The translations under genes and the position numbers were made by a program. Below, in pieces: positions 119 through 60,744 of a DNA stretch of 64,000 nt. Positions within the stretch are counted from its first letter, which is position 1. Each line of letters starts with the position of its first letter. The notes under the pieces were generated by a model. That model ran no database searches and had not been told where the DNA came from. It was given only the letters and a program-made list of their open reading frames with translations. The DNA is from Periconia sp. R9002 (Eukaryota > Ascomycota > Dothideomycetes > Pleosporales > Periconiaceae), in NCBI GenBank assembly GCA_023627715.1, contig JAMAHW010000080.1, positions 62,001 to 126,000 of the forward strand, written 5' to 3'.

Positions 119-3100
119 ATGTCTCATTCAAATCACAGCGGTGATGGTATTATCCGGACAGCTTCAGGGCGTGAAACATATGCACCTGATGGCCACTATA
201 GCGATTCGAAGAACACCAATGAAGGTTCAATGGAAGCCGAAGCAACGCTTCGTTCATCTAGCGACTCTTCGCAATCAAGATTCGGCCCCCTGAAAACACC
301 AAATGCAATGCACGACTCCGAAACCGAGCTCACGCCGAAGCTCACACGGCGGCAAACAGTTGAGCTACCCGATGAAGACCGAACACAGCTGGGTCAACTA
401 TACACTACACTATCACGACGATCCACCATTGTGTCTCCCGATGACCCTTCTGTCGATCCTTCTAGCGATCAATTCGATCTACCAAAGTTCTTGAAGCTGC
501 TTCGCAGACAGTTGGAGGAGGAGGGTGTCACCATGAGACAGGTCGGCCTCCTCTACAAGGATCTGAATATTTACGGTTCAGGAGCAGCACTGCAGATCCA
601 GAAAACAGTAGGGGATATGTTGCTGGCGCCTTTTCGTATCGGGGGAATGTTCAGTTTCGGCAAGACAGCTCATAAACATATCCTACGAAATTTCGATGGT
701 ATCATCAATAGCGGAGAAATGATCATTGTACTTGGTAGGCCGGGTTCTGGGTGTAGTACGCTACTCAAAGCCATGTGCGTTATACCTTGAGTACAATTAT
801 CGCGACCCCGCATGGATTAGCATTTTGAGAGATTGATAATGTACTGCAACCTCCCCGGATAGATTTTGCTAACTTTTCACTCACGATATAGGTGTGGTCA
901 ACTGAACTCCCTTACCATGGGACAAGAATCAGTTCTTCACTACAACGGTATTCCACAGAAACAAATGATGAAGGAATTTCGTGGAGAGACTGTATACAAT
1001 CAGGAGGTGAGTTACTACCATGTTGATATTTCAGCACTACATTAACAAAAAAGCACAGGTTGACAAGCACTTCCCACATCTCACAGTCGGCCAAACTCTC
1101 GAATTTGCTGCTGCCTGCCGCACCCCGCAACATCGTGTTCGTGGCATGTCCCGGGAGGAATTTTCCAAGTTCGTTGCGCAAGTCGTTATGACTGTAGTTG
1201 GCCTTAGCCATACGTATAACACGAAAGTTGGAAATGATTTCATAAGGGGTGTTTCGGGCGGTGAGAGGAAACGAGTATCCATTGCCGAAATGATGGTTTC
1301 TGGAGCACCTTTTGCGGCATGGGACAACAGCACAAGAGGTCTTGATTCAGGTATGAGACTCGAGCGAGTTCATCTGTGGTATGCTGCTAACAAAACCACA
1401 GCTACTGCATTCAAGTTCGTGCAATCGTTGCGCACTGCCTCTAACTTCAGCGGAAGCTCCGCAGCTGTAGCTATCTATCAAGCAAGCCAAAGTATATACG
1501 ACACTTTTGACAAAGCCACGGTGCTATATGGTTAGTTCTTCCTGGGTTAAAAGAGAGCACCAAGAAACCACATAGAGTGATGTTCTGCGATTTTAATCAT
1601 CTATCGAATCACCCCAGGTAGAATCCAGCTGACTTTGTAATTTAGAGGGCCGACAGATCTACTTCGGTCCAGCCGAAGAAGCAAAACCGTTCTTTGAACG
1701 TCAAGGGTGGTACTGCCCACCCAGACAAACAACCGGGGACTTCCTCACTAGTTTGACCAACCCATCCGAACGACAAGCCAAGGAAGGAATGGAAAATAGA
1801 GTCCCGAGGACCGCGGATGACTTTGAGCGGTACTGGAGAGAGTCTGCTGAATACCAAAGTCTCCAACAGCAAATCAAAGAATATGAACAAGAGCACCCAA
1901 TGGATGGCCAAGGAGCAAGTCTTGCTCGACTTCGTGAGCAGAAGAATCATGCCCAAGCCAACCGCGTTCGACCAGCGTCACCGTTCCTCGTGAGCGTGCC
2001 GATGCAGATAAAGTTGAATACACGGCGAGCCTATCAGCGCATCATAAATGACAGCGCGGCTCATATAACCCAAGCCGGTATGTATAGGAGGGTCCAAAAT
2101 CATTTCTTATCGAGACACTACCCCTGGTTATGATGAGCTAACTCTGTATTTGCGATATAGGTCTCAACGTGGTGATGTCCCTGATCGTCGGCTCGATATT
2201 CTTTGGCGCAGAAAACGATTCTTCAAGCTTTTTCTCTAAAGGATCCGTATTGTTCTTGGCTGTTCTGTTTAACGCACTCACGGCCATTTCCGAAATCAAC
2301 TCTCTATACGCACAGCGCCCAATCGTAGAGAAGCAGGCCAGTTATGCATTTTACCATCCGTTCACCGAGGCTATGGCAGGCATACTGTCCGATATACCGG
2401 TCAAGTTCGTGCAGGCAGTGGTTTTCAACATCATTTTATACTTTATGGCAGGATTGAGAAGAGATGCCGCACAATTCTTCCTGTATTTCCTAGTCACGTA
2501 AGTACACTGAGTCACCCCAGTTCGAGTTAAGCTAATGTGTACCGGCTAATCTAGGTACATTTCAATATTTGTGATGTCAGCAGTATTCCGAACACTCGCA
2601 GCAGTTACCAAAACGATATCACAGGCCATGGCTCTTTCAGGTGTCCTGGTTTTGGTATGTCACGTGATGCAACCTGAACTTCATGTTAACTAACTTTGTA
2701 CCCGCGAACTTAGGCACTTGTGATATACACAGGATTTGTTGTGGCCGTTCCGAACATGCACCCTTGGTTCAGCTGGATTCGATGGATCAATCCGATTTTC
2801 TACGCATTTGAAATCCTTGTCGCAAACGAATTCCATGGTCGCGAGTTTCCATGTGCATCTTTCATTCCCAATTACACACCGCTTCCAGGAAGTTCATTCA
2901 TATGCAACGTCGTGGGCGCCGTCCCCGGACAAACCAATGTCAGCGGCGATGATTTTATTGCAACCAACTATCAGTATGTTGAACTCTAGGTACAGAGTCG
3001 TTTGTTATCGAGACACTACATAGCGTGGCGTATCGAGACACTGATGATGTACTGTAACCACCCTAGTTACATTTGACTAACTTTGTACCCGTAAGTTATT

Positions 3101-5969
3101 ATTACTCCCACGTATGGCGCAATTTTGGAATCCTTCTCGGGTTCCTTTTCTTCTTCATGTTTGTGTACTTTTTGGCAGTCGAACTCAACTCTGCGACATC
3201 GAACTCTGCCGAAGTACTCGTCTTTCAACGTGGTCACGTCCCAGCTTATTTGCAGAATGCCTCCGACCAGGAATCGACTGATGCCGCGAACACCAAGGAC
3301 GATGCCGATACCGAAGTTGCAAAAGTCCCTCCCCAAAAGGATATCTTCACTTGGCGCGACGTGACGTACGACGTTCCTGTAAAAGAAGGCACTCGGAGAC
3401 TGCTTGATAACGTCACGGGGTTCGTCAAGCCTGGCACTCTGACGGCTTTGATGGGTGTCTCGGGCGCTGGAAAGACCACACTACTAGATAATCTCGCCCA
3501 GAGAGTCTCCACAGGTATTGTGACGGGTGATATGTTTGTGAACGGAAAGCCACTAGACGCCAGCTTCCAACGCTCCACGGGATATGTCCAACAGCAGGAC
3601 TTGCATCTTGAGACCGCCACTGTTCGCGAGAGCCTTCGATTCAGTGCAATGTTACGCCAGCCTAAGACAGTGAGCAAGCAGGAAAAGTATGAATATGTTG
3701 AAGAAGTGATCAAGATGCTCAACATGGGCGATTTCGCAAATGCCGTGGTTGGCGTGCCTGGTGAAGGTAATTAGCAGTCCGCTCTACGTTATGAGAGAAG
3801 CTAATTGTGCCAAGGTTTAAATGTCGAACAGAGAAAGCTACTTACCATCGTAAGCGCCCATGATTGATGATCGCTACTCAAAGAAAAGCCCTGTCTAACT
3901 GGTATCATATAGGGTGTTGAACTAGCCGCAAAACCAAAGCTCCTGCTTTTCCTAGACGAACCTACGAGTGGTCTCGATAGCCAGGTCAGTTTTGATTGTT
4001 ATTTTTTGTGGCCTTTGTTGCAGTTCACATTGAGGAACAGCAGTATGGAATATGGATGTATCACGTGACTAGTTGCTCACAGCCAAACAACACTGTGACT
4101 GCGTGTTCACAACTGAGAAACATTTTCTAATTGTGTATAGAGTTCCTGGGCTATTTGCTCCTTCCTCCGCAAGCTCGCCGATTCCGGCCAGGCCGTCCTC
4201 TGCACTATCCATCAGCCCTCCGCCATTCTATTCCAAGAATTCGACCGTTTATTGTTTTTAGCGAGAGGCGGAAGAACAACTTATTTTGGTGAAATAGGAA
4301 AGAATTCCCGCATCCTTCTGGATTACTTTGAAAGCAACGGCGCGCGCAAATGCGGAGCCCAGGAGAATCCCGCAGAGTACATCTTGGAGATCGTGAACAA
4401 GGGTAACAACGACCAAGGAGAAGACTGGCACGAAGTATGGAAACGCAGTAGCCAGCGCAGTCAGTGTGAGCAGGAAATCGATAGGATCCACTCGGAGAAA
4501 CAGCACGAGCAGGTAGCTGGGTCGGAAGAAGCAGCCGGGAGCACTGAGTTTGCCGCTCCACTGCACACCCAACTGGCCCAAGTGACCTATCGCGTATTTC
4601 AACAGTATTGGAGAATGCCCAACTATATTTTCGCAAAGTTTGCGTAAGTTGTTCTGGTTATAAAGTCATGTCAGGATACCACATGGCGTGTGGCGTTTGG
4701 AACTTTGACCCACTGTATCACCTTAGGTTGGATTAATCTGACTTTTTATCCGCAAATCTAGGCTGTGTATTTTTGCTGGCCTTTTCATAGGATTCACATT
4801 CTATGGCGCCGATTCGTCGCTGAGTGGCATGCAGAACGTTCTCTTCGCAGCCTTCATGGTCAGTTTTTGCTCACCCATTGAATCACCACCGCTTGAATCC
4901 AACTGACTTTGTATTTGCACTCTTAGGTGACAACTATGTTTACCAGTCTTGTAAATTCCATGCAGCCATTAGTATGTATCTAACCTCCTGGTCGCAGCAA
5001 GTTGTGTGAGGGATTTCACTGACCTTATACCCACAACTGTAGTTTATCACCCAACGGTCCCTTTACGAAGTACGCGAGAGGCCCAGCAAGGCGTACTCCT
5101 GGAAAGCTTTCATTATAGCCAACATCGTTGTAGAGATACCTTATCAGATTCTTGCTGGGTTGGTTTTATGGGCTTGCTTTTATTATCCAGTCGTGGGGGT
5201 TCAGAGTGGTATCAGGCAGGTTCTCACCATGCTTTTTACCATGCAGCTACTCGTATATGCTTCTGCATTTGCGCACATGACGATAAGTTCCCTTCCGGAT
5301 GCCCAAACGGCGGCAGGTTTGGTGACTTTGTTTACTTTTATGAGCATCATGTTTAGCGGCGTTCTACAATCGCCCAGTGCGCTCCCCGGTTTTTGGATCT
5401 TTGTGAGTTAAGACGAGTCTCAATAACCTGCAATATTTGCTAACCGCAGTATGAATGCAGATGTATAGAGTCTCACCTTTTACGTATTGGATTGGAGGCA
5501 TAGCTAGCACGTTGTTGCACGGCCGAAATGTGGTCTGCTCGCCCACCGAAGTATCACGCTTCAGCCCCCCAGCAGGTCAAACGTGTGGCGAATACCTCGC
5601 AGATTTTCTTCAGACTGCACCTGGTGTCCTTCAAAACCCAGAGGCGACGGATGAGTGCAACTACTGTGGACTTCGCAATGCGGACATGTTCCTCGCAGGA
5701 TCACAAATCTACTACAGTGAACGCTGGCGGAATTTCGGAATCATGTTTGCTTTCATTGGTAATAATCGATCTCGTCTTTTGATTGGGTATGATTTGATTT
5801 TAACTGTTCTGCAGGATTCAATATCTTCATGGCGGTTTTCACCTATTGGTTATTTAGAGTCGCCAAATTTGGAAAAGGTAGAGGGAAGAAAACAACGGCA
5901 ACGAAGAAGAAGGAAGTCGAGAGTGCTGAAAAAGTGGTCAAGAAAAGTGCAGAGAGTGCCGCCCTTTAA
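119..5969 (+). CDS. PDR-type (ABC-G) full-length ABC transporter
   Basis: Predicted plasma-membrane efflux pump with the NBD-TMD-NBD-TMD order of the fungal pleiotropic drug resistance family. Exons: 119-774, 892-1006, 1059-1350, 1402-1530, 1646-2077, 2161-2497, 2555-2654, 2714-2973, 3096-3766, 3815-3849, 3913-3984, 4141-4643, 4762-4858, 4927-4971, 5043-5402, 5461-5758, 5815-5969. The sum is 4557 nt, giving 1518 aa, the usual family length. The first Walker [10 protein letters not shown] (about residues 206-214), has Cys in place of the usual Lys, as in PDR proteins. It is followed by the signature [10 protein letters not shown] and the [10 protein letters not shown] block. The second half has a canonical Walker [10 protein letters not shown], and [11 protein letters not shown]. 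The start is the ATG at 119, in frame with the N-terminal extension. Sixteen introns is far more than any other gene here, and at least eight belong to a repeated intron family. Substrates are unknown. Exact exon edges are inferred from reading frame and family conservation. Confidence 0.93.
775..891 (+). repeat. Introner-like element, ABC transporter intron 1
   Basis: This 117-bp intron has a GTGCGT donor and TATAG acceptor. Its 3' half contains gataatgtactgcaacc and gctaac, then ends cgatatag. This matches the subfamily I elements at 2974-3095 and 59838-59963, although the middle has diverged. Confidence 0.7.
1531..1645 (+). repeat. Introner-like element, ABC transporter intron 4
   Basis: This is a 115-bp intron with a GTTAGT donor. 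Its 3' module reads gaatcaccccaggtagaatc, then a ctgac branch site and tttgtaatttag. It resembles subfamily II elements (4644-4761, 6885-7011). The tail is shortened. Confidence 0.6.
2078..2160 (+). repeat. Introner-like element, ABC transporter intron 5
   Basis: This 83-bp intron carries tatcgagacactacc, which is shared with the 2974-3095 element, followed by gctaactctgtatttgcgatatag in two adjoining parts. It looks like an internally deleted subfamily I copy. Confidence 0.65.
2655..2713 (+). repeat. Introner-like element (short), ABC transporter intron 7
   Basis: This 59-bp intron retains mainly the 3' module. The sequence ctaactttgtacccgcgaac plus ttag is almost the same as the tails of the elements at 2974-3095 and 59838-59963. 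The upstream part is lost or was never present. Confidence 0.6.
2974..3095 (+). repeat. Introner-like element, ABC transporter intron 8 (near-identical to 59838-59963)
   Basis: This is a 122-bp phase-2 intron between the Asn-Tyr-His codons and the [11 protein letters not shown] block of the transporter. From the GTATGT donor to the branch region it aligns almost base for base with the oxidoreductase intron at 59838-59963 (reverse strand). I count about 12 differences over about 117 aligned bases, all transitions. Shared blocks include ggtacagagtcgtttgtta and gtactgtaaccaccctag. The acceptor is AAG rather than the TAG of the other copy. Confidence 0.9.
4644..4761 (+). repeat. Introner-like element, ABC transporter intron 12
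   Basis: This 118-bp intron contains catggcgtgtggcg, then gtatcaccttaggttgg, then ctgactttttatccgcaaat and ctag. The order of blocks is that of the other repeated introns (a GGCGTGGCG-like core, a tATCACC block, a CTGACTTTGTACCCGC tail). It is assigned to subfamily II. Confidence 0.7.
4859..4926 (+). repeat. Introner-like element (short), ABC transporter intron 13
   Basis: This 68-bp intron has ttgaatcaccaccgcttgaa followed by ctgactttgtatttgcac and a TTAG end. It matches the 3' half of the subfamily II introns in the kinase gene. Confidence 0.6.
4972..5042 (+). repeat. Probable introner-like tail, ABC transporter intron 14
   Basis: This is a 71-bp intron. Only its end, cactgaccttatacccacaa plus ctgtag, resembles the family tail. 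This is the weakest member, and convergence around a branch site cannot be excluded. Confidence 0.4.
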
Positions 5970-6667
5970 ATCGAGGTGATTGGGCATAGCACTGTCTTAC
6001 ACCGGTCAACTATATGTACATATGTTTGTTTCCGTGTTCTGCTATTGGGTACTATTCTTCATTTCAGGTGTTTAATTGTATTTGTACATAGATTGATTAT
6101 AGCTCAAGTTTGCTCGTTACTATTTGCGATTTCTATGCAGCATTTGAGGTGATTGATGCACGTGTAGAGTACCACGTGATTGCTCATTAGCTTCCGTTCC
6201 AGATGTCGGGAACACGATTGCCGAAAAGCCATTTGAGATTCCAATGTTTATGTTCACGGAAAAGTGGGTAACATGGAATTCGCTAAATTGACCATGACTT
6301 TTTATCGAGTGCGATGGCAAAGTTTCGTTATCGCCACCCACCACCGCGCATCCCTCGTATCCACGTCCATGGCTCTGATTGGCGCGTTCAACGTCCACTA
6401 CAGAATAACGTGCGCCGCCACTCCTGAATGCTCTAGTGTGTACTCAAGCGTGCGAACCTTCAGACAACCTCTTCTTTGGGGTTGCCCCTCTGCTGACCAT
6501 CGTTCTTTGCGCTGTGCCCGTTCTTTTACTAACCATCGACACGAAGCCTCTGGCGCTGGCATGGCTGCTTAAGAAAAGTCGCAGAACATGCCTGATCATG
6601 CGCCGCAAGTCCAACGCCACCTAGCGCTGAGTACTGTCTACCATCCATTCCGCGGCATTCCTTCACC
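5970..6667. other. Intergenic region, ABC transporter 3' end and kinase 5' region
   Basis: About 700 bp between the transporter stop and the kinase ATG. Short overlapping ORFs occur but none looks like a protein. A small CACGTG-containing inverted pair (cacgtg near 6160 and 6174) is visible. The kinase promoter must lie here. No TATA box was recognised. Confidence 0.5.
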
Positions 6668-9600
6668 ATGGACGCACCTCGTCCAATACGCTCTCCGAAG
6701 CAGATGACAGAGCCGAGACGGCATCGTGAAGTCTGCGTACGTTATGGCGCGATTCTCAAGGACATCTCGGTTTTGCCCCATACGGGCGCTCCCGAGAGCT
6801 TTTCTCTTCCCAGCCATCATGTTCCTCGGAGATCTATAGATCCTAGTCTTGCAGCTTTTGCACAGTTAGCCTGTCTTCGCTCCGGTACGTTTTCCTCGGG
6901 CACGAAATAACATCACGATCACGATCACACGTGGCGGGGCGTTCTAAGACCCCGATCGCCCTTTGAATCCCTCCAGGTTGCATGAAACTGACTATGTACC
7001 CGCGAATTCAGCGACCAGTCGAGCAATGATCTCATTGATCGACGATACAAAACTTCATGCCTTGGCTGAATCCACACCGGATCTGATGCTTCGCTCCAAC
7101 GACCCAGGAGAAACAAGCAAAGGTATTTGGCTAGGCACTGCGAGTGTCCCTCGGAAATGGATGCCTTGCGAGAGCATAGTGAAGAGCTGGGCCAGCGACT
7201 CAGCTTCGGGCGAAGACGTTGTGGTGTTCCGCGATCTCTCAGAAACTGATTATGCTCAGCGTAATTTTGTAACAACATATCCATTTCTCCGGTTCTACGC
7301 CGGTGTGCCGTTGATAACGTCTAAGGGCGCCGTCATTGGAACGTTATGTGTAACGGACGAAACCCCCCGTCATGGTCTTGAAGAGCATCAGATCTTGTAT
7401 TTGCAGGATCTTGCCGTTAGTAAGTTTCCCCAGGTACCAAGTCTTATCATCAAGACGCCATTTGGCGTGGCGTTCTGAGACCTTGACCACGCGCTGAATC
7501 ACCCTCATTCAAATTGCGCTAATTTGATATTCTCGAATTTAGCTATAGTAGAGTACTTGGACCTCTATATGATGAAAGAACAAATGAGTCGTCATGAAAA
7601 GCTGATGCGTGCGCTCATGTCTTTTGCGGAAGGAGGCTCCACTATGCGCCCCTTCGTAAATGAAAGCCAGCGTCAACTTTCACTGGAGGGGACAGAGCTT
7701 CCAGAACCTCCGCGCGAGAAGAAAGCGCCAGCTCTTGCAAAACGGCGGACGCCGTCACCTTCAAAAAATGAGGGGCGACCAAAATCTAGCCGCCAGAACT
7801 CCATGAGAGATCTTCAAGAAAGCATTTTACCAGCAAATTCACGGTCTATGTTTTCCCGTGCCGCCAGCGTAATTCAGAATTCGAGTGACCTCGACGGTGT
7901 TTTGATCCTAGACGCCTCGGTTGTGGGTATTGGAGTTACTCACGACAACTTTGTTTCGTCTGAGGAGGTTTCGGATGTGTCTTCTTCGGGGGAGATGTCA
8001 TCATCTTCCCGCGACGAAGACAACAGGGAAGATAACACATCACCGCCTCAGAGACGACTATCGTCTTCTTCTCAGAAAACTTGTCAGGTTTTGGGTTGGG
8101 CAACTGTAAAGTTCTCTGATTTTGAGGGCCATCATCCGCCATCGGCGCTCACAGATTTCCCAGAGAAGGACCTTTCCCTCATGTTTCGCACATACCCGGA
8201 GGGGAAAATAATAGAGACCTCGGCAGATGGCGAACTTGTCTCTTCGACCGATGATTCGGACAGTTCAACTATTCCGGGAGAAACGCCTGCGATGTCGCAA
8301 GAAACTGCGGAAAAGAGAAAGAGAACAACAGATGCAAAGCTCAAGCTTGCACTAGCTCTCCGCAAAATCCTGCCCGACGCACTCAGTGTCGCCTTTGCCC
8401 CTCTGTGGGACTATGAGCGGTCAAGGTGGTTTGCTGGGTGCATCTGTTGGAGTAATCGTGCTGATAGGAAATTGACCGAAAGTTTGGATCTGTCATATTT
8501 CAAAATCTTTGGACATTCGATAATGGTGGATCTCTCCCGTTTAGATGCTCTCGCGGCAAGTAGCGCAAAATCATCCTTCGTTGCGTCCATCTCGCATGAA
8601 CTGCGGTCTCCTCTACACGGCATCCTGGGAACATTAAGATTTCTCGAAGACACTGCGCTGGATTCATTCCAGATATCGATGATCAATTCCTTAGGATCTT
8701 GCGGGCAGACTCTATTGGACACCATTGATCACGTACTTGACTACGCAAACGTGTCAGCGACCAAGGGGAAAAAATCTTCGTCGAAAAGATTGAGAGGTCC
8801 AAAAGCCATCCATGTGACATCGAAAGCATCGAAAAGAATCCGGCGTGGCAATGTGCCCCAAATCCCCGCTATTGACCTATCGAAAGCGACCGAGGAGACA
8901 TTAGAGGCAGTAATATCTGGCCAGTCATACGCACTTTTGCAAGCTCACGAGTGGCAGGATTTGCCGCAAACTGATGATTCACCAAGAAAATATGATAGAT
9001 ATATCGTACTTGATGTCGCAGAAGAGCCTAGCTGGCATTACCAAGTTGAGCCCGGCAGCTGGCGGAGACTGGTCATGAACCTGGTAGGCAACGCTCTTAA
9101 GTACACCGAATCAGGCTACATACACATTTCGCTTCGATCCGGTTTCTCTGCCGATGGCACTGATGATCGCACTGTATATCTTTCCGTCAAAGACACCGGG
9201 CTAGGAATGAGCGAGAAATTCCTTGTGAATCATGCTTTCCAACCTTTCCAGCAGGAAAATTCCCATTCTCCAGGCACCGGACTCGGTCTGAGTATCATCC
9301 GATCGATTATGGATCGTTTGGGTGGTAAGATCAATATTACCAGCGCACCTGGACAAGGTACAGAAGTGCGCCTCCGTTTCTCGCTCCCAGCACCAGAGCC
9401 TAGCTTGTCTCCTGATTCTCAGATTTCTCGATTCATGACCATAACGTCACAGTTGGCAGGCCAGCGTATTTGCATACTGAACCAGGCCAGAGATGTCCAG
9501 CAAGACAATGAAGGCCAAGTCACGAGCCAGGAGGGAATGGACAGGTTCACGAGTGCACTGGAATACACGCTTAGCAGGCATTTCAAGATGACAGTGGTGC

Positions 9601-38992: not shown

Positions 38993-39391
38993 ATGGCTGA
39001 TCATTTCTGGTTAGTCCTATGCTATCGAACGAAGTTCTCAACCATGCCACTAGAGACTATTCCAATGACTATCACGGCAGTAAATCGAGAAGGCTGGCCT
39101 TCTGTCGATGTCCAAGACGAGGATTACAGATACTGCTCGGTTTTCCATCGAACTGCTGCGATTAATATCACGGTAGGATTCCCTGAAGACATAGATGTCA
39201 GTGGTAGCATCATAGGATCGTACACATTCTACAATAATGCTATAGCATGCATGAAGTATCTCTATCTCCGCCATATGAATGTGGAGTTAGGAGAGAGGAG
39301 CATACCAACGGTCATGAGAGTTCCTTTCGATGACGGAGGGTATGCTCTCTATGAGGTGATGTGCGTTGACATTTCCCATTTGTCGCGCTAG
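38993..39391 (+). CDS. Small protein of unknown function, paralogue of 40285-40755
   Basis: A 132-aa ORF that I do not recognise. It aligns with the gene 0.9 kb downstream: WLVLCYRT with WLIIDHLS; INITVGFPE...GSIIGSYTFYNNAIACMKYL with FDIKVEFAK...GRILASYDTYGEALDRMNDL; and LYEVMCV with FFEVIKV. Conservation at protein but not DNA level argues that both are or were real genes. I placed the start at 38993 because it matches the paralogue's N-terminus; ATG 38975 is the alternative. The TAG at 39389 sits just before a 13-bp minisatellite, and an acidic reading frame (DEDSGDD) resumes after it, so the C-terminus may be truncated. No signal peptide or membrane span. Confidence 0.6.
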   Translation: MADHFWLVLCYRTKFSTMPLETIPMTITAVNREGWPSVDVQDEDYRYCSVFHRTAAINITVGFPEDIDVSGSIIGSYTFYNNAIACMKYLYLRHMNVELGERSIPTVMRVPFDDGGYALYEVMCVDISHLSR

Positions 39392-39420
39392 GTCGACGAT
39401 TCTGAAGTGTACGGTTCTGA

Positions 39421-39537
39421 TAGTCGATTCTGATAGTCGATTCTGATAGTCGATTCTGATAGTCGATTCTGATAGTCGATTCTGATAGTCGGTTCTGATA
39501 GTCGGTTCTGATAGTCGGTTCTGATAGTCGATTCTGA
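39421..39537 (+). repeat. 13-bp minisatellite, nine full copies
   Basis: Nine tandem units of tagtcgattctga (39421-39537), three of them with G for A at position 7, preceded by a partial unit cggttctga at 39412. Because 13 is not a multiple of three, all frames cycle and meet TAG or TGA within 39 bp, so it cannot be translated through. It begins 30 bp after the stop of the preceding gene. Confidence 0.95.
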
Positions 39538-40284
39538 TGAAGACTCTGGTGACGATAAAGTCCCTTATGCGTCTATTATGATGAACATGCTTTCGCGTCT
39601 GTTATCACTCCTTATCTCGATTGATGTCGATTCTCTTGAACATAGCCAATTAACTCATCCCCCAATCAATAGATAATCGCAACAATGATATAACTAGTAT
39701 ACTGCAATAACACTAATCCACTCTGCCCTTCGCCGCCACTGAAAAGTTCAACGGTGATGATATGTGCAGCGTAAGGGGACAAATAGTTATCTATGTACAC
39801 GTTCCTCAGCTAATGACGTTACCTGTGATTCCTACCAAGTATTGATACCGTGAGTGATTACACCACTCATTTGCGATGGTGCAAACACTTTTGATGTGAA
39901 ACTTAAGGGTACTGGACGTATTGGGAACCGAGCACAACGCGTGGGGTGGGAGTCACAACTTTCCTATTTCACTACCAATAACGCATTTCGATTGGGAGAC
40001 CATCTTCTTGCTACCACGGTTGTGCATCCTCTCATCACGTGGTATTGCAAACAATACATTTTCCGTGTTCCGCATCCTTTGGCTAAATCCATATATATTA
40101 CAACTCGCTAGTCCCAGCAATTTGCAACTCCCCTTCTACAACCGTTTTGGACCTACAACCTTTCCATCACTTGGATATTTTCCCCTCCAACTCAACTCAC
40201 ACTGAACTCCTTGATCCTCCAACCACCGCTCCACATTTCATCAACCCTTTAACAACCCTCACAAACCTCCGACTACCGAGCAAG
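39538..40284. other. Intergenic region between the two small paralogues
   Basis: About 750 bp. It starts with an open acidic stretch continuing from the minisatellite (about 40 codons to a TAA near 39675). It includes the 35-nt dispersed motif at 39842-39876 and a TATA-like catatatata near 40090, followed by CT-rich leader of the next gene. Confidence 0.5.
39842..39876 (+). repeat. Copy 2 of a dispersed 35-nt motif
   Basis: It begins ttgataccgtgagtgattac and ends ttgcga, and matches about 30 of 35 positions of 25829-25863. The inner gagtg and cactc can pair as a stem. It lies about 410 bp upstream of the gene at 40285. Confidence 0.5.
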
Positions 40285-40755: not shown

Positions 40756-42933
40756 ATGATAGAGGGAGTAGCACGGGGTGGGTTCCAGTTAAGACGACAG
40801 GTTGAAGGATGATACTATAAAGGATACAATAGTTTTGTCTTGATATATACGGCTCGTTGATGGAAATTGTCCTTGAAAAGTTCTATGATGAAATAATGTA
40901 TATACTGGCACTGGTTTCTCTGCAGGAAAGTAAGGTTAACTTTGCGATATTTATATACGAACGGAGCAAGCAATTGTGCTGATCACAACATCTTACAAGA
41001 TCCAAGATAGGCGTGAAACAGCGAAGTTTGTAATCAATCTTAATAGAGCAAGCAACGAAGTGACTGTTTGTCAAACCTAGAATGCCTTACAAAATGAGAT
41101 TTGCGCATTTCCAGGGCGTTTCGGGGCCTAACCAATTCGCATCCGCAAATCTATGTTAACTTGGAATGAGGTATTCGGGGAAGCCGCGGATATACGTGGA
41201 AACAAAAAAAGTACGAAGGGGGCTATTTTCAGACGTGGCTTTTTGAAACATTTGCTTTGCAAGTACACGGTTCGTGGCGGGGGCTTATCTGGGATCAAAT
41301 GGCGTCTGTACACTGCCTTGCTGGCGTCAACGAAGGTCAGAAACACGGTCCTTGGAACGCATGCCTCACTGCTACTGGGCTACTGGGCTTCAGCCTATAT
41401 GCCATGTACGTTGTTCCCAGCAAAAGTGTTTACAGGTATTGATTTTGTACAATACATAAAAAGTTGGGATTGCGCTAATGTAATGTCGGTTATTATTTCG
41501 AGTATAGCTTACTCGCAGGTCATTGCACAGTGGGAGATGCTAAGTGAGATGCAAGGATAATACCTAACACAGACAGTTTTCTAGTTTCTGGATGCTGGAT
41601 GGACCTCCGTTCATTGGTCCTTCTTGTTGTGTTGAATCGAAGGACATTCGGTCAGGATTTATCCGACCAGGCATCTTTCTTACTCGCTAAATGAGTATAC
41701 AAAAAAAGGCAACACAAGGCGGGACACTGGTTTTACGGGCGTAAGGACTGAAGGATATGCATAGTTCTATACGACAGGATTTCATAGACTGCGCCCAATG
41801 TTACAGCCCCACTTAGCTATAATTGAAATTTCGGTAGACTGACAGTTATGCTGAGTACATATGCTCCAGCCGACACAGCGAGTAAGCGTGTCAGTGCCAG
41901 CCTTGGAGACGATCATGATTGGCCGCACTAAAACACTTGATGTATTGATTTTACGTTTGGTGTGTTGTTGGATACCTACGTCTCATGCGCCTGCAGACAC
42001 ATACACTTATTTTCACAATGGGGTCGGAATTCTTGGTGTAACAATAGATTGAAATCGCTGGTAGGCCTGAGACGCTTAGGACATCACCATAGAATACAAC
42101 CATCTGGAGTATCAATGTCACTAGTGGAGCCATCGCAACAGACAATCCTATTGCTAGCGGTTGGATAAAGGTTTTGCAACACAAAAACATAAAAGCTTGG
42201 GTTGTGTGGGGTATAACTACTACGGCCGTATGAAAATTCAATTTCGCCGTTATGCTCCTACGTGTTGGACCTTGGCTGTGATTCGTGGCTGCGCGGGCTT
42301 GCATGCTCGGAGATTATCATTGTTACGAGTTGACAAACAGATAGTCCTCCCAACAACTAACAGTCTATAGAATCTGCTTTTCGAATGATTATTCTTGTAT
42401 CGTATCGGAAAGCCTTGACGCATCGTATATGTCCTATTCAAGTTCCATCGCCTTTGAAAACATTGACTGTGCATCTCACATTCAATAGACAGCTTCGCCT
42501 CCCTATAACAATCTTACGACATGTATTTTCGTGCGAGAAATGGGCTGCCTGAAAATTGTAGCCTGTGCCTTAACCTAGCCCCAGTCGCTGAAACAGAAGC
42601 GAAGACCCTGGAGTCAGTCCTTCCATGCCACTAGCAGCCCTTCTCATTGGATAGCCCTAGCAAGCAGTTCCCAATTGAGTTGTCGCGCATGATATCCGTC
42701 AGCGATAGTGTGCCGTGCAAAGGATGAACAGGTAGAAGGATGGCGGGTTTCATGGGGCCAGCTTTTGCTCCGACCGTGCCCCCACCGTTAAAACCCTTTG
42801 CTTCTGCAGTTTCCCATGCAGCGTTCCCGCTGCTGGCAGTTACGCTACTCCGTCGACTGCATACTCCCGTGTAACACGAATTCACTGTTGCCTTCGTGAT
42901 TGAGCATCGTTCCATAAGCTTGCAAGTTCGAGC
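40756..42933. other. Long intergenic region, no gene recognised
   Basis: About 2.2 kb. The longest ORFs (135 codons at 41153-41560 plus, 117 codons at 41951-42304 minus) have no motif and ordinary chance length. No repeat or RNA gene seen. Confidence 0.5.
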
Positions 42934-53577: not shown

Positions 53578-54856
53578 CTACTCGGGCTTTTGGCCAAACG
53601 TGACGTGGAAGTGGACGTAGGTATGATTATTGGGATCCTTGACCTCCTTTCTGGCCAGGGCAAGGATGATTTGCAGATTCTCAGGTCTTCCCCCTAGAAT
53701 TTGCGTGTAACCTCTCAACATGTAGGCTTCGAAACCGCCATCGGTGATCATGGCCAGCTCGAGCCTGCCCACCATTCGCAGTCTTTTAGATCGCGCCCAC
53801 GCCCCCATGGGCAGCTTAAAGATCACGTCCTCGACGTTGATGAAGCCTGCCGCTCGCATCTGCTCGGCCCAGTTTCGAGGCGCATCCAAGGGGGCGCCCA
53901 TCTTCTCTGCCATTTCAAAGTAGAGGCGGGATGCCTCTACATAGCCGCTGTTGGGCGGGATGGTTCCATCATCGGAATGCACCTCGGGGATGGTGGAGGC
54001 GAGTTCGATCCAGCCTCCTGGCTTGAGGTGAGCGTAGGCTTGAGAAATGAGGCGCGGCCAGTCGCGGACGGCGGTCATGAGATCACGGCCGTGCACAAAG
54101 TCGAAAGGGGCGCGATATTGCCATTCATCCTCGACGTCATCTATCTCGAAGATGCAATTGGGCGGCACAAAAGAGGGTTGGGTAGGCGCGATGTCCACCC
54201 CCAACACTTCAGCGATGGGGAACTGGTCGGCCATGTCTATGGCCCAAATCCCAGTCCCCGTGCCGAGGTCGAGAACGCGAGCATTACTATCGCTGAGGCG
54301 TTCATCTGGGATGGGAGCGATATAGAGCCTGTCGCCGAGAAGAAGTGTGTACTTGCGGTGCTGCAGATCGCTTTTTTCAAACTCGATTAACAATCTCGTT
54401 TTTTAACAACACGCCTCAAGTGCTATCTTGGATTGTTTAAGATGTTATGATTAGCACCATTACTTACTTGCGGTCCATTTCCTTCTCATCCATGGGCATG
54501 CCATACTCGTGCTTTCCGTAAGAAGGATAGATTCGGCCCTCTACCTCGACGCCACGCCTCACTTCGGACAAAATGGAGGATAGGAAGGAGGAGGTGTCGG
54601 ACTCATCATAGCTGGATATAAGTGCAGTGAGTATTTGAGGATCAATTTCAAAGTGGCAGTCTTACCCTTCGTCGCTAAAGGATGCGTCGTCAGGCTGGAC
54701 TTGAATGATATTGGAGCCATGATTGTCCTGATCGAATTCGGTCGAGGGACCGGCATCGACGCCAGAGTCGATGGGGTCAGGGTGTTCGGCTGGGATTTTG
54801 GCGGTTCCTTGGGAGGCGCTAGGGTGGCCGTTGTTGTGCTCGTCGGACCGGTCCAT
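53578..54856 (-). CDS. LaeA-like SAM-dependent methyltransferase
   Basis: Predicted class I methyltransferase of the large fungal LaeA/UMTA-like group, whose members act as regulators of secondary metabolism or as tailoring enzymes. Exons: 54856-54666, 54611-54468, 54394-53578, encoding 383 aa. The N-terminus is acidic and disordered. YPSYGKHEYGMPMDEKEMDR leads to SDLQHRKYTLLLGDRLYIAP, the typical substrate-side lead-in. SAM motif I is RVLDLGTGTGIWAID (about 151-165), followed by GVDIAPTQPSFVPPN, DFVHGRDL and LKPGGWIELAS. The second intron must end in GAG to keep KLLIEFEKSDLQH in frame; this is unusual and should be checked against RNA. It is divergent from the O-methyltransferase-like gene, about 1.1 kb away. 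Whether it is a regulator or an enzyme is undecided. Confidence 0.87.
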
Positions 54857-59021: not shown

Positions 59022-60744
59022 CTACACAGCAACGCCAACCTCCCCCACACCCACCTCCGTAACCTCGACCCACGACTCATCCTTACCCCTCTCCTCCTCC
59101 TCTACCTCCACCATATCCGTCAACTGCAAATACCTCAAATTGCTCGCCCAGCCCAGATCGTCCTGGAAGTAGCTCTGCATGACATCAACGCCGTACTTCA
59201 TCCCGTTCGTCGCGTCGTAGGTGAGACACTGCTTTCCTACCGCTATGCCGATGACGGCGGGCCACGAAGGGAGTTCCGTGGGTTTGTAAAGCGAGGGCGC
59301 GGCGGCGGGGGATTCATTTTCGTTTTCGTCGTCATCGTCAGCGGCGGCTTCGGCGTTCAGGATCGATGCAAAGACGTTTTGTGCGGCTGCTTGACCCATC
59401 ACCATGGCCGAGCCTGCGCGCTTGATGCCGGTCCAGGCGATCACGTCGCCGACGCCGAAGTGGGCCTCGCGGTTCGCGATGGCGGTCGTTTTGAAGGTGA
59501 GGTCGTTGTTGACTTCGATTTCGCCGTCGTTGTTGAGGCACTGCGCAGGGAGGATGCTGGTTGTGGGCTCGCCCTTTTTGGTCGAGTCGATTACGAAGTC
59601 TGCGGTGAGGGTTCGGCCGTCGGCGAGCTGGACGTGGAATTCACCGGATGGAAGTTCGGTGACGGTCGCGCGGTTGCCGAGCACGACGTCGACGCCTTCT
59701 TCAGCGAGCAGCGTGCCGACCTGATCTTTTACTTCTGAAGGAAGGGGCTCGGAGGAAAGGACTTGTGAGCGCGAGTGGATGAGTGTGACGTGTATGTTTG
59801 GGTAGCAGACTTTGATTTCGCCAGCGAACTCAACGCCCTATATCGCGGGTACAAGGTTAGTTAAATGTAACTAGGGTGGTTACAGTACATTATCAGTGTC
59901 TTAATACGCCACGCCACGTGGTGTTTCGGTAACAAACGACTCTGTACCTGGAATTCAACATACTACGGCTCCAGCCCCAATGATACATACGGCTCTCCTT
60001 CCATCCTGGGGTTTCTTAGGGTCGCCACCGACGATTTTCTGGATAAATGCTTTGCCGTCTTGCATGTACTCTTCGTAGGAGCCGGATTTGGGGACCGCTG
60101 GCCAGTGTCGCTTCATGCCAGTCGCTATGATTGCGTAGTCGTATTCGTGTTGGTGCTCTGCGCCGTTGCGATCACGGTACGTGGCGGTCTTGGAGGATGG
60201 GTCTATGGAAGTGACTGTGCCGTGTTTAAAAGAGAGGTTTGAGTTTTGGAGCTCTTTTAGATGTAAGAAGCGCTTCCACATTTTCGGTGTGTGAGAGGGA
60301 GCTACGTGAGCCAGGGGAGCGCCGACAGAATGGACTATTGAACAGTGAGCACTTGCAACACGAATTTTCATCTTCTCAATTCCAAATGAGTAAACTGGGT
60401 AAGAACGTACAATAACCATCTCTCCGGTCAATAACCGTGACTTCAACCCCCCTTCTGGACCGTTTCCCGCCAAAGTCTGCTCCGGGGTAGACAGCTTGTC
60501 TGGGCTGGCCCTTGTCCAGATCCAAAAGATTCACTACGGCAGTTACACCTCCATAAGCACATCCCACGACCAGCACACGATGTTTCCGCGTTTTGCTAAG
60601 GGACAACTTGGCCATGGAATCGGTCATAGACGAAGCCAACCCGCCACTGAGAGAGGGGAGTCTCATCCTGGACACGATGAAATAGATACAAGCAATTGCA
60701 ACAGGGTATCTGAGGTCTGAGATGGTTATATTATTGAAACCCAT
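59022..60744 (-). CDS. AIF/AMID-like FAD-dependent oxidoreductase
   Basis: Predicted FAD/NAD(P)H oxidoreductase related to type II NADH dehydrogenases and AIF-like death-associated proteins. Exons: 60744-60411, 60334-59964, 59837-59022, encoding 506 aa. The N-terminus has a hydrophobic segment (YPVAIACIYFIVS) that may be a membrane anchor or targeting region. The FAD Rossmann motif follows (HRVLVVGCAYGGVTAVVNLL). Splice 1 restores DGYFHSVGAPLAHV; YDYAIIATGMKRHWP is the typical ATG motif. The second nucleotide motif is CIIGAGAVGVEFAGEIK. The C-terminal half has FVIDSTKKGEP and FGVGDVIAWTG. The 126-bp intron interrupting the GAGAV-G codons is nearly identical to an intron in the ABC transporter. 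GATA-type motifs cluster upstream. Cellular location and electron acceptor unknown. Confidence 0.9.
59838..59963 (-). repeat. Introner-like element, oxidoreductase intron 2 (near-identical to 2974-3095)
   Basis: This 126-bp phase-0 intron has donor gtatgt, branch region aactaac and acceptor gatatag. It is about 90% identical over about 117 aligned bases to transporter intron 8, which lies on the opposite strand 57 kb away in an unrelated gene. The host exon sequences show no similarity, so the intron itself was copied. Confidence 0.9.

Follow-up and report, generated by a model that had tools for sequence, protein, structure and literature searches.

A 123-bp element with 3-bp target-site duplications as the probable source of an introner family in Periconia sp. 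R9002

Two near-identical introns in unrelated genes of Periconia sp. R9002 most probably belong to one introner family which, judged from the ends and flanks of its copies, would be a 123-bp non-autonomous DNA element that duplicates 3-bp targets, mostly TAT (probability about 0.83). The repeating unit was offset from the intron at both ends, its flanking trimers covaried, and copies without a usable donor were found outside detectably coding sequence. The insertion scars suggest that the element moves as DNA.

Element-derived introns in the window and in the genome

The window (the whole stretch of 64 kb that was analysed, bases 62001-126000 of contig C80) carried the two introns on opposite strands. 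An earlier note on this DNA had described them as near-identical introns in unrelated hosts. Alignment showed 12 differences over 118 aligned positions (89.83% identity), and the pair also appeared in the window repeat listing as the inverted pair I1 (119 nt at 90%). Inspection of the sequence showed that the coordinates proposed for both introns were exact to the single base. The flanking exons were dissimilar and the hosts, a PDR-type ABC transporter and an AIF/FSP1-like oxidoreductase, were as unrelated as had been claimed. The host genes, the introns and the element bodies were:

119 to 5830 (end approximate), plus strand: PDR-type ABC transporter, host of copy 1, its exon ORFs traced by inspection to about 5830
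2974 to 3095, plus strand: copy 1 intron in the ABC transporter, with GTATGT donor, CTAAC branch-like motif and TAAG acceptor
2978 to 3094, plus strand: copy 1 element body, starting GTTGAAC and with a decayed 3' end (profile score 121.7 bits)
59022 to 60744, minus strand: AIF/FSP1-like FAD/NAD(P) oxidoreductase of 506 aa, host of copy 2, with introns at 60335-60410 and 59838-59963
59838 to 59963, minus strand: copy 2 intron (oxidoreductase intron 2), with GTATGT donor, CTAAC branch-like motif and ATATAG acceptor
59837 to 59959, minus strand: copy 2 element body, GTTGAAC...ATATAGG, 123 bp, flanked by TAT (5') and GCG (3')

The first exon ORF of the transporter (119-790) matched the Pfam family ABC_trans_N over its cut-off (67.6 bits) and ABC_tran at 23.8 bits (cut-off 25). 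With slashes marking the splice junctions, the copy 1 intron read ...AACTATCA/GTATGT...CGTAAG/TTATTATTAC..., and on inspection the surrounding exons rejoined in frame with D F I A T N Y before the junction. Copy 2, which was 96% identical to the family consensus, read ...GGAGCCGTA/GTATGT...GATATAG/GGCGTTGAG... The spliced oxidoreductase was nearest to that of Periconia macrospinosa, at 87% identity across 95% of the query, followed by P. digitata (79%) and then other Pleosporales, and its alignment to its two best homologues spanned 95 and 100% of its length. In the four homologues fetched, GAGAVGVEFAGEI or GAGAVGIEFAGEI was continuous across the copy 2 junction with no gap. Just upstream of this intron, exon 2 (window 59955-59995) read RRAVCIIGAG against RRVAIIGAG and RRVVIIGAG in two Periconia homologues, a difference of one additional residue.

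A profile of the element, built from matches in the DNA read and including the window's own stronger matches, gave 10 matches at E below 0.001 in the window, every one on the strand of its host gene; this count excludes two weaker matches at E 0.04 and 0.09. As a control, five shuffled windows were searched up to E 1 and gave 0, 2, 1, 1 and 0 hits. Judged by the exon ORFs, seven matches lay in the ABC transporter, two in a histidine kinase gene downstream and one in the oxidoreductase. The matches other than copies 1 and 2 were the following decayed element-derived introns:

784 to 890, plus strand: ABC transporter (62.1 bits, E 2.3e-18)
1559 to 1639, plus strand: ABC transporter (42.6 bits, E 2.4e-12)
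2090 to 2159, plus strand: ABC transporter, in two profile pieces (15.8 bits, E 4.6e-4 and 9.6 bits, E 0.04)
2678 to 2707, plus strand: ABC transporter, 3' part (15.7 bits, E 5e-4), with an exact CTAACTTTGTACCCG at 2690
4653 to 4755, plus strand: ABC transporter (44.0 bits, E 9e-13)
4862 to 4918, plus strand: ABC transporter (17.1 bits, E 1.8e-4)
6918 to 7005, plus strand: histidine kinase gene downstream (52.6 bits, E 2e-15)
7428 to 7536, plus strand: histidine kinase gene downstream (57.9 bits, E 4.5e-17)

The intron at 2090 to 2159 also shared a 31-nt repeat (D7, 84%) with copy 1. The window copies formed a series from 96% identity to the consensus down to sequences that could hardly be recognised, in keeping with decay into ordinary introns. 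Nine of the 10 crowded into two adjacent plus-strand genes (784-7536) and the other 56 kb held one. Two further repeats were seen in the window: a tandem array at 39386-39564 with a 13-bp unit (about TCGATTCTGATAG) in 10 register-shifted copies, and the inverted 46-nt repeats I3 (40965-41010 and 54423-54468, 83% complementary), which had no match to the element profile and are perhaps a second dispersed family.

The genome searched comprised 42.9 Mb in 267 contigs. A chance resemblance was rejected: copy 1 as query gave at least 40 matches at E 1.8e-36 or better (the best 40 of 239 candidates), 38 of them outside the window and the remaining two being copies 1 and 2, and the family consensus also gave at least 40 (the best 40 of 314 candidates). 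Patterns of the element ends, allowing up to 3 mismatches, were found at 177 sites for the 5' end and 242 sites for the 3' end, against one site for each reversed control. No exact match to the 20-base 5' end of the element was found in viral contigs.

Copies were read from about 300 kb of DNA, made up of the 38 non-window matches of copy 1, two others and 53 further stretches (49 through the 3' core list and four through the consensus search), a sample that leans to well-kept copies. The profile search of this DNA gave 123 matches, 83 of them full length. The earlier note had stated that a lack of further copies inside introns would refute it; the hundreds of sites and the 26 sense-coding copies among the 83 did not refute it. 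The best copy pair was 99.2% identical, which points to recent activity. In 20 ten-kb stretches, 10 extra decayed matches lay off-centre (about 1 per 18 kb); scaled up, this gives a rough figure of some 2,400 recognisable remnants genome-wide, from DNA that was chosen for holding copies.

Several copies had features of their own. Two coding insertions with unrelated flanks (L025:4905-5029 and L032:777-901) both began with GTAAGTTGAGC, ended in GCAT and had several changes in common in between; the common start may be an improved donor (GTAAGT). Two copies lay a few hundred bases apart in one mechanosensitive-channel-like gene by Pfam (L009:4390-4515 and L009:4867-4993), as did two in another single gene (L026:4415-4522 and L026:4925-5049). 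The copy L014:8338 was considered as a second subfamily and rejected, having no other full-length match among the best 40 of 183 candidates.

The repeating unit and its target-site duplication

The unit that repeats was the 123-bp element GTTGAAC...ATATAGG (5'-GTTGAACTCCAGGTAC...CTAACTTTGTACCCGCGATATAGG-3'), and its length was exactly 123 bp in 53 of the 78 in-register copies. It starts four bases inside the intron and stops one base past the intron end. The class proposed in the earlier note, introner-like elements, stands, with near-identical introns in unrelated genes and hundreds of copies, and the unit itself is refined from the intron to the element. The four bases 5' of the element were GTAT, GTAC or GTAA in 25 of the 26 sense-coding copies and variable in the others; the three bases 3' of it were mostly TAT. 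The G after ATATAG was taken as the last base of the element because 20 of the 25 copies that lacked a GT donor carried it; in these 25 copies base -4 was near random.

No clear terminal inverted repeat was found at the element ends, only a subterminal inverted repeat, GGTACARAGT, 11 bp from each end (reached in 6 of 5000 shuffles at the exact register and in 91 of 5000 at any offset). The RNA fold of the consensus was not unusually stable (z -0.84, with 40 of 200 shuffles as stable), and neither were those of the two window copies (z -0.71 and 0.23). A stwintron reading was rejected, the nested donor/acceptor pair being absent from the copy on inspection.

The in-register set comprised 78 of the 83 full-length copies, with L033, window copy 1, L037, L065 and L057 dropped. 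The 5' and 3' trimers were identical in 43 of the 78 against 28.6 expected (0 of 20,000 shuffles), and TAT/TAT accounted for 36 of these 43. The test given most weight was on the copies with a 3' trimer other than TAT, among which seven of 34 were exact against 1.5 expected (p 1e-4). Shuffling within donor classes gave 2.0 expected for the same seven (p 0.0015) and again 0 of 20,000 for all 78 copies. The seven exact trimers were:

ACA: L043 and L066
TGT: L081 and L091
TGC: L029:1135
TAC: L026:4518 and L089

Matching by position over the 78 copies was significant at -3 (0 of 5000), -2 (0 of 5000) and -1 (p 0.0008) and absent at -4 (p 0.27), from which a duplication length of 3 bp follows. The copies without a GT donor, taken alone (25 in register), had 11 exact trimers against 4.5 expected (p 1e-4), with position -1 by itself marginal (p 0.052). 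In the 42 copies other than TAT/TAT, seven were exact against 4.3 (p 0.11) and 71 of 126 bases matched against 51.4 (p 1e-4). The 26 low-coding copies among these 42 had five exact trimers against 2.5 (p 0.08) and a match by bases at p below 5e-5, and the duplication signal was absent from the 14 in-register sense-coding copies other than TAT/TAT (two exact against 2.2; 21 of 42 bases against 20.4).

Other origins of the matching trimers were rejected. A 2-bp (TA) duplication of the pogo or Tc1 kind does not account for the match at -1 (p 0.0008 over 78 copies, 0.052 in the 25 without GT) or for the ACA, TGT and TGC pairs, which hold no TA; a 4-bp duplication is not compatible with the absence of a match at -4 (p 0.27). 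A tandem or circular-intron origin of the downstream GTAT would add four bases and break the frame, yet the frames rejoin, and the ACA, TGT, TGC and TAC pairs are not GTAT.

The flanks of the 83 copies contained no similar pair (threshold 55% over 50 bases); being mutually unrelated, they indicate separate insertions. Empty sites were not found for 12 chosen copies whose joined flank pairs were searched in the same genome (the best 40 of 151 candidates): the queries matched their own halves and a dispersed repeat of up to 55 bases of one left flank, and the junction was never crossed. This repeat made up 44-55 left-flank bases of the L019 copy at 4898, occurred in at least 31 further places and ended 5 to 16 bases before the insertion.

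Orientation, donors and routes of spread

In-frame hexamers, trained on 47 long open frames, were used to score how strongly each of the two flanks resembled coding sequence. By this score, 26 of the 83 full-length copies were sense-coding, one was antisense and 56 were neither, the last being a score-based class that includes UTRs and weakly scoring genes (sense against antisense, p 4e-7). Random points were sense-coding in 22-25% and antisense in 20-21% of cases, the lower figures, from the ten-kb stretches, being underestimates by about 6%, since points that were skipped had been left in the denominator; the copies were sense-coding in 31% (26/83). Antisense exon copies are thus missing, and the family is not concentrated in coding sequence.

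A GT donor was present in all 26 sense copies and in 30 of the 56 copies of the neither class (p 5e-6), so that the 26 copies without it all fell in the latter. Median identity to the consensus was 91.1% without GT and 92.7% with GT (p 0.22), and the copies without GT were therefore not detectably older. All 24 in-register coding copies had G at -4 and T at -3, against A7, T8, G4 and C6 at -4 in the 25 in-register copies without GT. The orientation bias, the donor rule and the similar divergence of copies with and without GT fit insertion anywhere, followed by loss of unspliceable copies.

The computed messages kept their frame after excision of the element-derived introns. Five computed spliced pieces were compared with Pfam: the FAD_binding_3, MS_channel_2nd and Glyco_hydro_15 matches spanned the junction well, the MFS_1 match (under cut-off) reached three residues past it and the DHH match (under cut-off) began just after it. 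The GH15 piece gave zero matches to solved structures. At L021, the restored TAT encodes what is presumably the tyrosine of the conserved GYCR motif of ketosynthases.

These observations suggest the following course. A sense-strand insertion behind a G would give G-TAT-[GTTGAAC...ATATAG]G-TAT, in which the donor GTATGT would consist of the target G, the duplicated TAT and the GT of the element, and the element would supply the CTAAC branch site and the ATATAG acceptor. Its last G would replace the exon G and the second TAT copy would complete G-TAT, so that the frame would be exactly restored. Insertions into exons that were antisense or not behind a G would be unspliceable and lost, any insertion outside genes would survive, and old copies would decay into ordinary-looking introns. 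We infer actual splicing, a transposase and the order of these events.

For the transposase, DDE_Tnp_4 (Pfam) gave 0 matches in the genome, and KDZ (Pfam) also gave 0 in a search whose controls gave no signal either. For DDE_1 (Pfam) there were 22 matches, of which 17 fell on contigs with high numbers that seem to be short. Among 100 of the 177 5' ends and 100 of the 242 3' ends, two distant end pairs were found, on C65 (2.4 kb) and C89 (1.1 kb); none of the DDE_1 matches lay on the contigs of these pairs, each of which may be two decayed copies. None of the three families tried was found inside element ends.

The copies with poorly matching trimers bear on how the family spread. Copy 2 lies between GTA and GGC GTT (V-G-V), where the four homologues read V-G-V or V-G-I, and it has no duplication, because its trimers are TAT and GCG and the GCG lies within codons conserved in the homologues. 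The L017 copy could not have had a downstream TAT, since with the present neighbouring bases TAT would read as a stop. Such sense copies either had their 5' side reshaped for splicing or belong to a minority copied seamlessly as in the RNA model. A combined origin, in which DNA transposition gave the non-genic and most genic copies and seamless RNA or repair copying of spliced introns gave others, such as copy 2, is unlikely; if true, a single family would link the DNA model of intron gain with the RNA model. A general two-way spread, with DNA movement and its 3-bp duplication joined by occasional seamless intron copying through RNA or break repair, would explain why copy 2 looks like one exact intron length between conserved codons, with L017 similarly placed. 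However, trimers matching at one of three bases or fewer were found in six of 26 copies without GT as well as in nine of 26 sense copies, so that decay explains much, and we regard such a spread as distinctly unlikely.

Spread by RNA throughout, the route usually proposed for fungal introner-like elements, in which spliced intron RNA was reverse-spliced into other transcripts and copied back to DNA seamlessly and with no duplication, is very unlikely. It would account for the genic copies without a duplication, including window copy 2 and L017, for the nine of 26 sense-coding copies matching at one trimer base or fewer and for the lack of signal in the sense-coding copies other than TAT/TAT. 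It predicts, however, that copies lie in genes in the sense direction, start with GT and show no covariation of their trimers, whereas 26 of 83 lacked GT and were not detectably older, the covariation was found in exactly these copies, and 56 of 83 lay outside detectably coding sequence. The last count would also suit ordinary unspliced repeat fragments in damaged genes, a reading that is hardly credible given that frames rejoin in computed excision, every one of the 26 sense copies had an intact donor, sense outnumbered antisense 26 to 1, the alignments of the oxidoreductase to its two best homologues covered 95 and 100% of it and four homologues are gapless at the junction.

Comparison with known introners

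Introners in the broad sense are said, after Gozashti and colleagues in 2022, to be families of sequence-similar introns at unrelated positions, and the Periconia family consists of such introns. Introner-like elements (ILEs) were reportedly described in Dothideomycetes by van der Burgt and colleagues in 2012, the fungal ILEs of that work reportedly having an unusually stable RNA fold; this feature of the RNA-type ILEs was seen neither in the Periconia consensus nor in the two window copies. The other features of that type, absence of a target-site duplication (TSD) and gene bias, were not shared either, and for this reason the family was placed with introners of the DNA-transposon type with splice-site co-option. 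Part of its predicted donor site is co-opted from the duplicated target.

The preferred reading of a DNA element with a 3-bp duplication would, through that duplication, the equally young non-coding copies and the duplication-derived donor rule, make the DNA model apply to at least one lineage of ascomycetes. The family also hints at how a duplication mark can be missed when only introns are collected: splicing holds the 5' side to GTAT, GTAC or GTAA, the sense-coding copies other than TAT/TAT are free of signal, and the duplication comes to light when non-intronic copies are included.

In section 8 of PMC9860276, introners, algal and otherwise, are for the most part interpreted as DNA transposons, with those of ascomycetes as the exception for which reverse splicing is invoked, and the ILEs of Dothideomycetes are summarised as highly biased to genes. 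Passages of PMC9860276 and, in 2025, of PMC12403724 state that ascomycete introners lack TSDs and terminal inverted repeats (TIRs). The text of Collemare et al. 2015 (PMC4457414) on ILEs contains neither 'target site' nor 'inverted repeat', and for the [D1,2] sister stwintrons of Hypoxylaceae and Xylariaceae the relevant part of PMC12403724 reports that a TSD and an exon bias were not found. No fungal introner family with a TSD was found in the open-licence literature searched.

The Periconia family resembles the Dothideomycete ILEs, as far as these are portrayed in excerpts of PMC4457414, in its hundreds of near-identical introns in unrelated genes, in rapid decay and in some genes with several copies. 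It differs in that those are reported, as summarised in PMC9860276, without TSD or TIR and as gene-biased, whereas in the Periconia family a 3-bp TSD and a subterminal inverted repeat are present and 57 of 83 copies are not sense-coding. The [D1,2] stwintrons, in the portions of PMC12403724 devoted to them, are likewise sequence-similar introns multiplying in an ascomycete and with inverted repeats, but are nested double introns, whereas the Periconia family is one simple intron, has a TSD and shows a strong bias to G-TAT flanks. With the DNA-transposon introners of Huff et al. 2016, as outlined in parts of PMC12403724 and PMC9860276, it shares a short non-autonomous unit, a TSD, a splice site taken partly from the duplicated target and a restored frame; unlike them, it resides in a pleosporalean ascomycete, its TSD is 3 bp and TAT-preferring, and its terminal inverted repeats are not clear. 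Overall, on the present sequence evidence, the Periconia element family looks like an exception to the TSD-less introners of ascomycetes.
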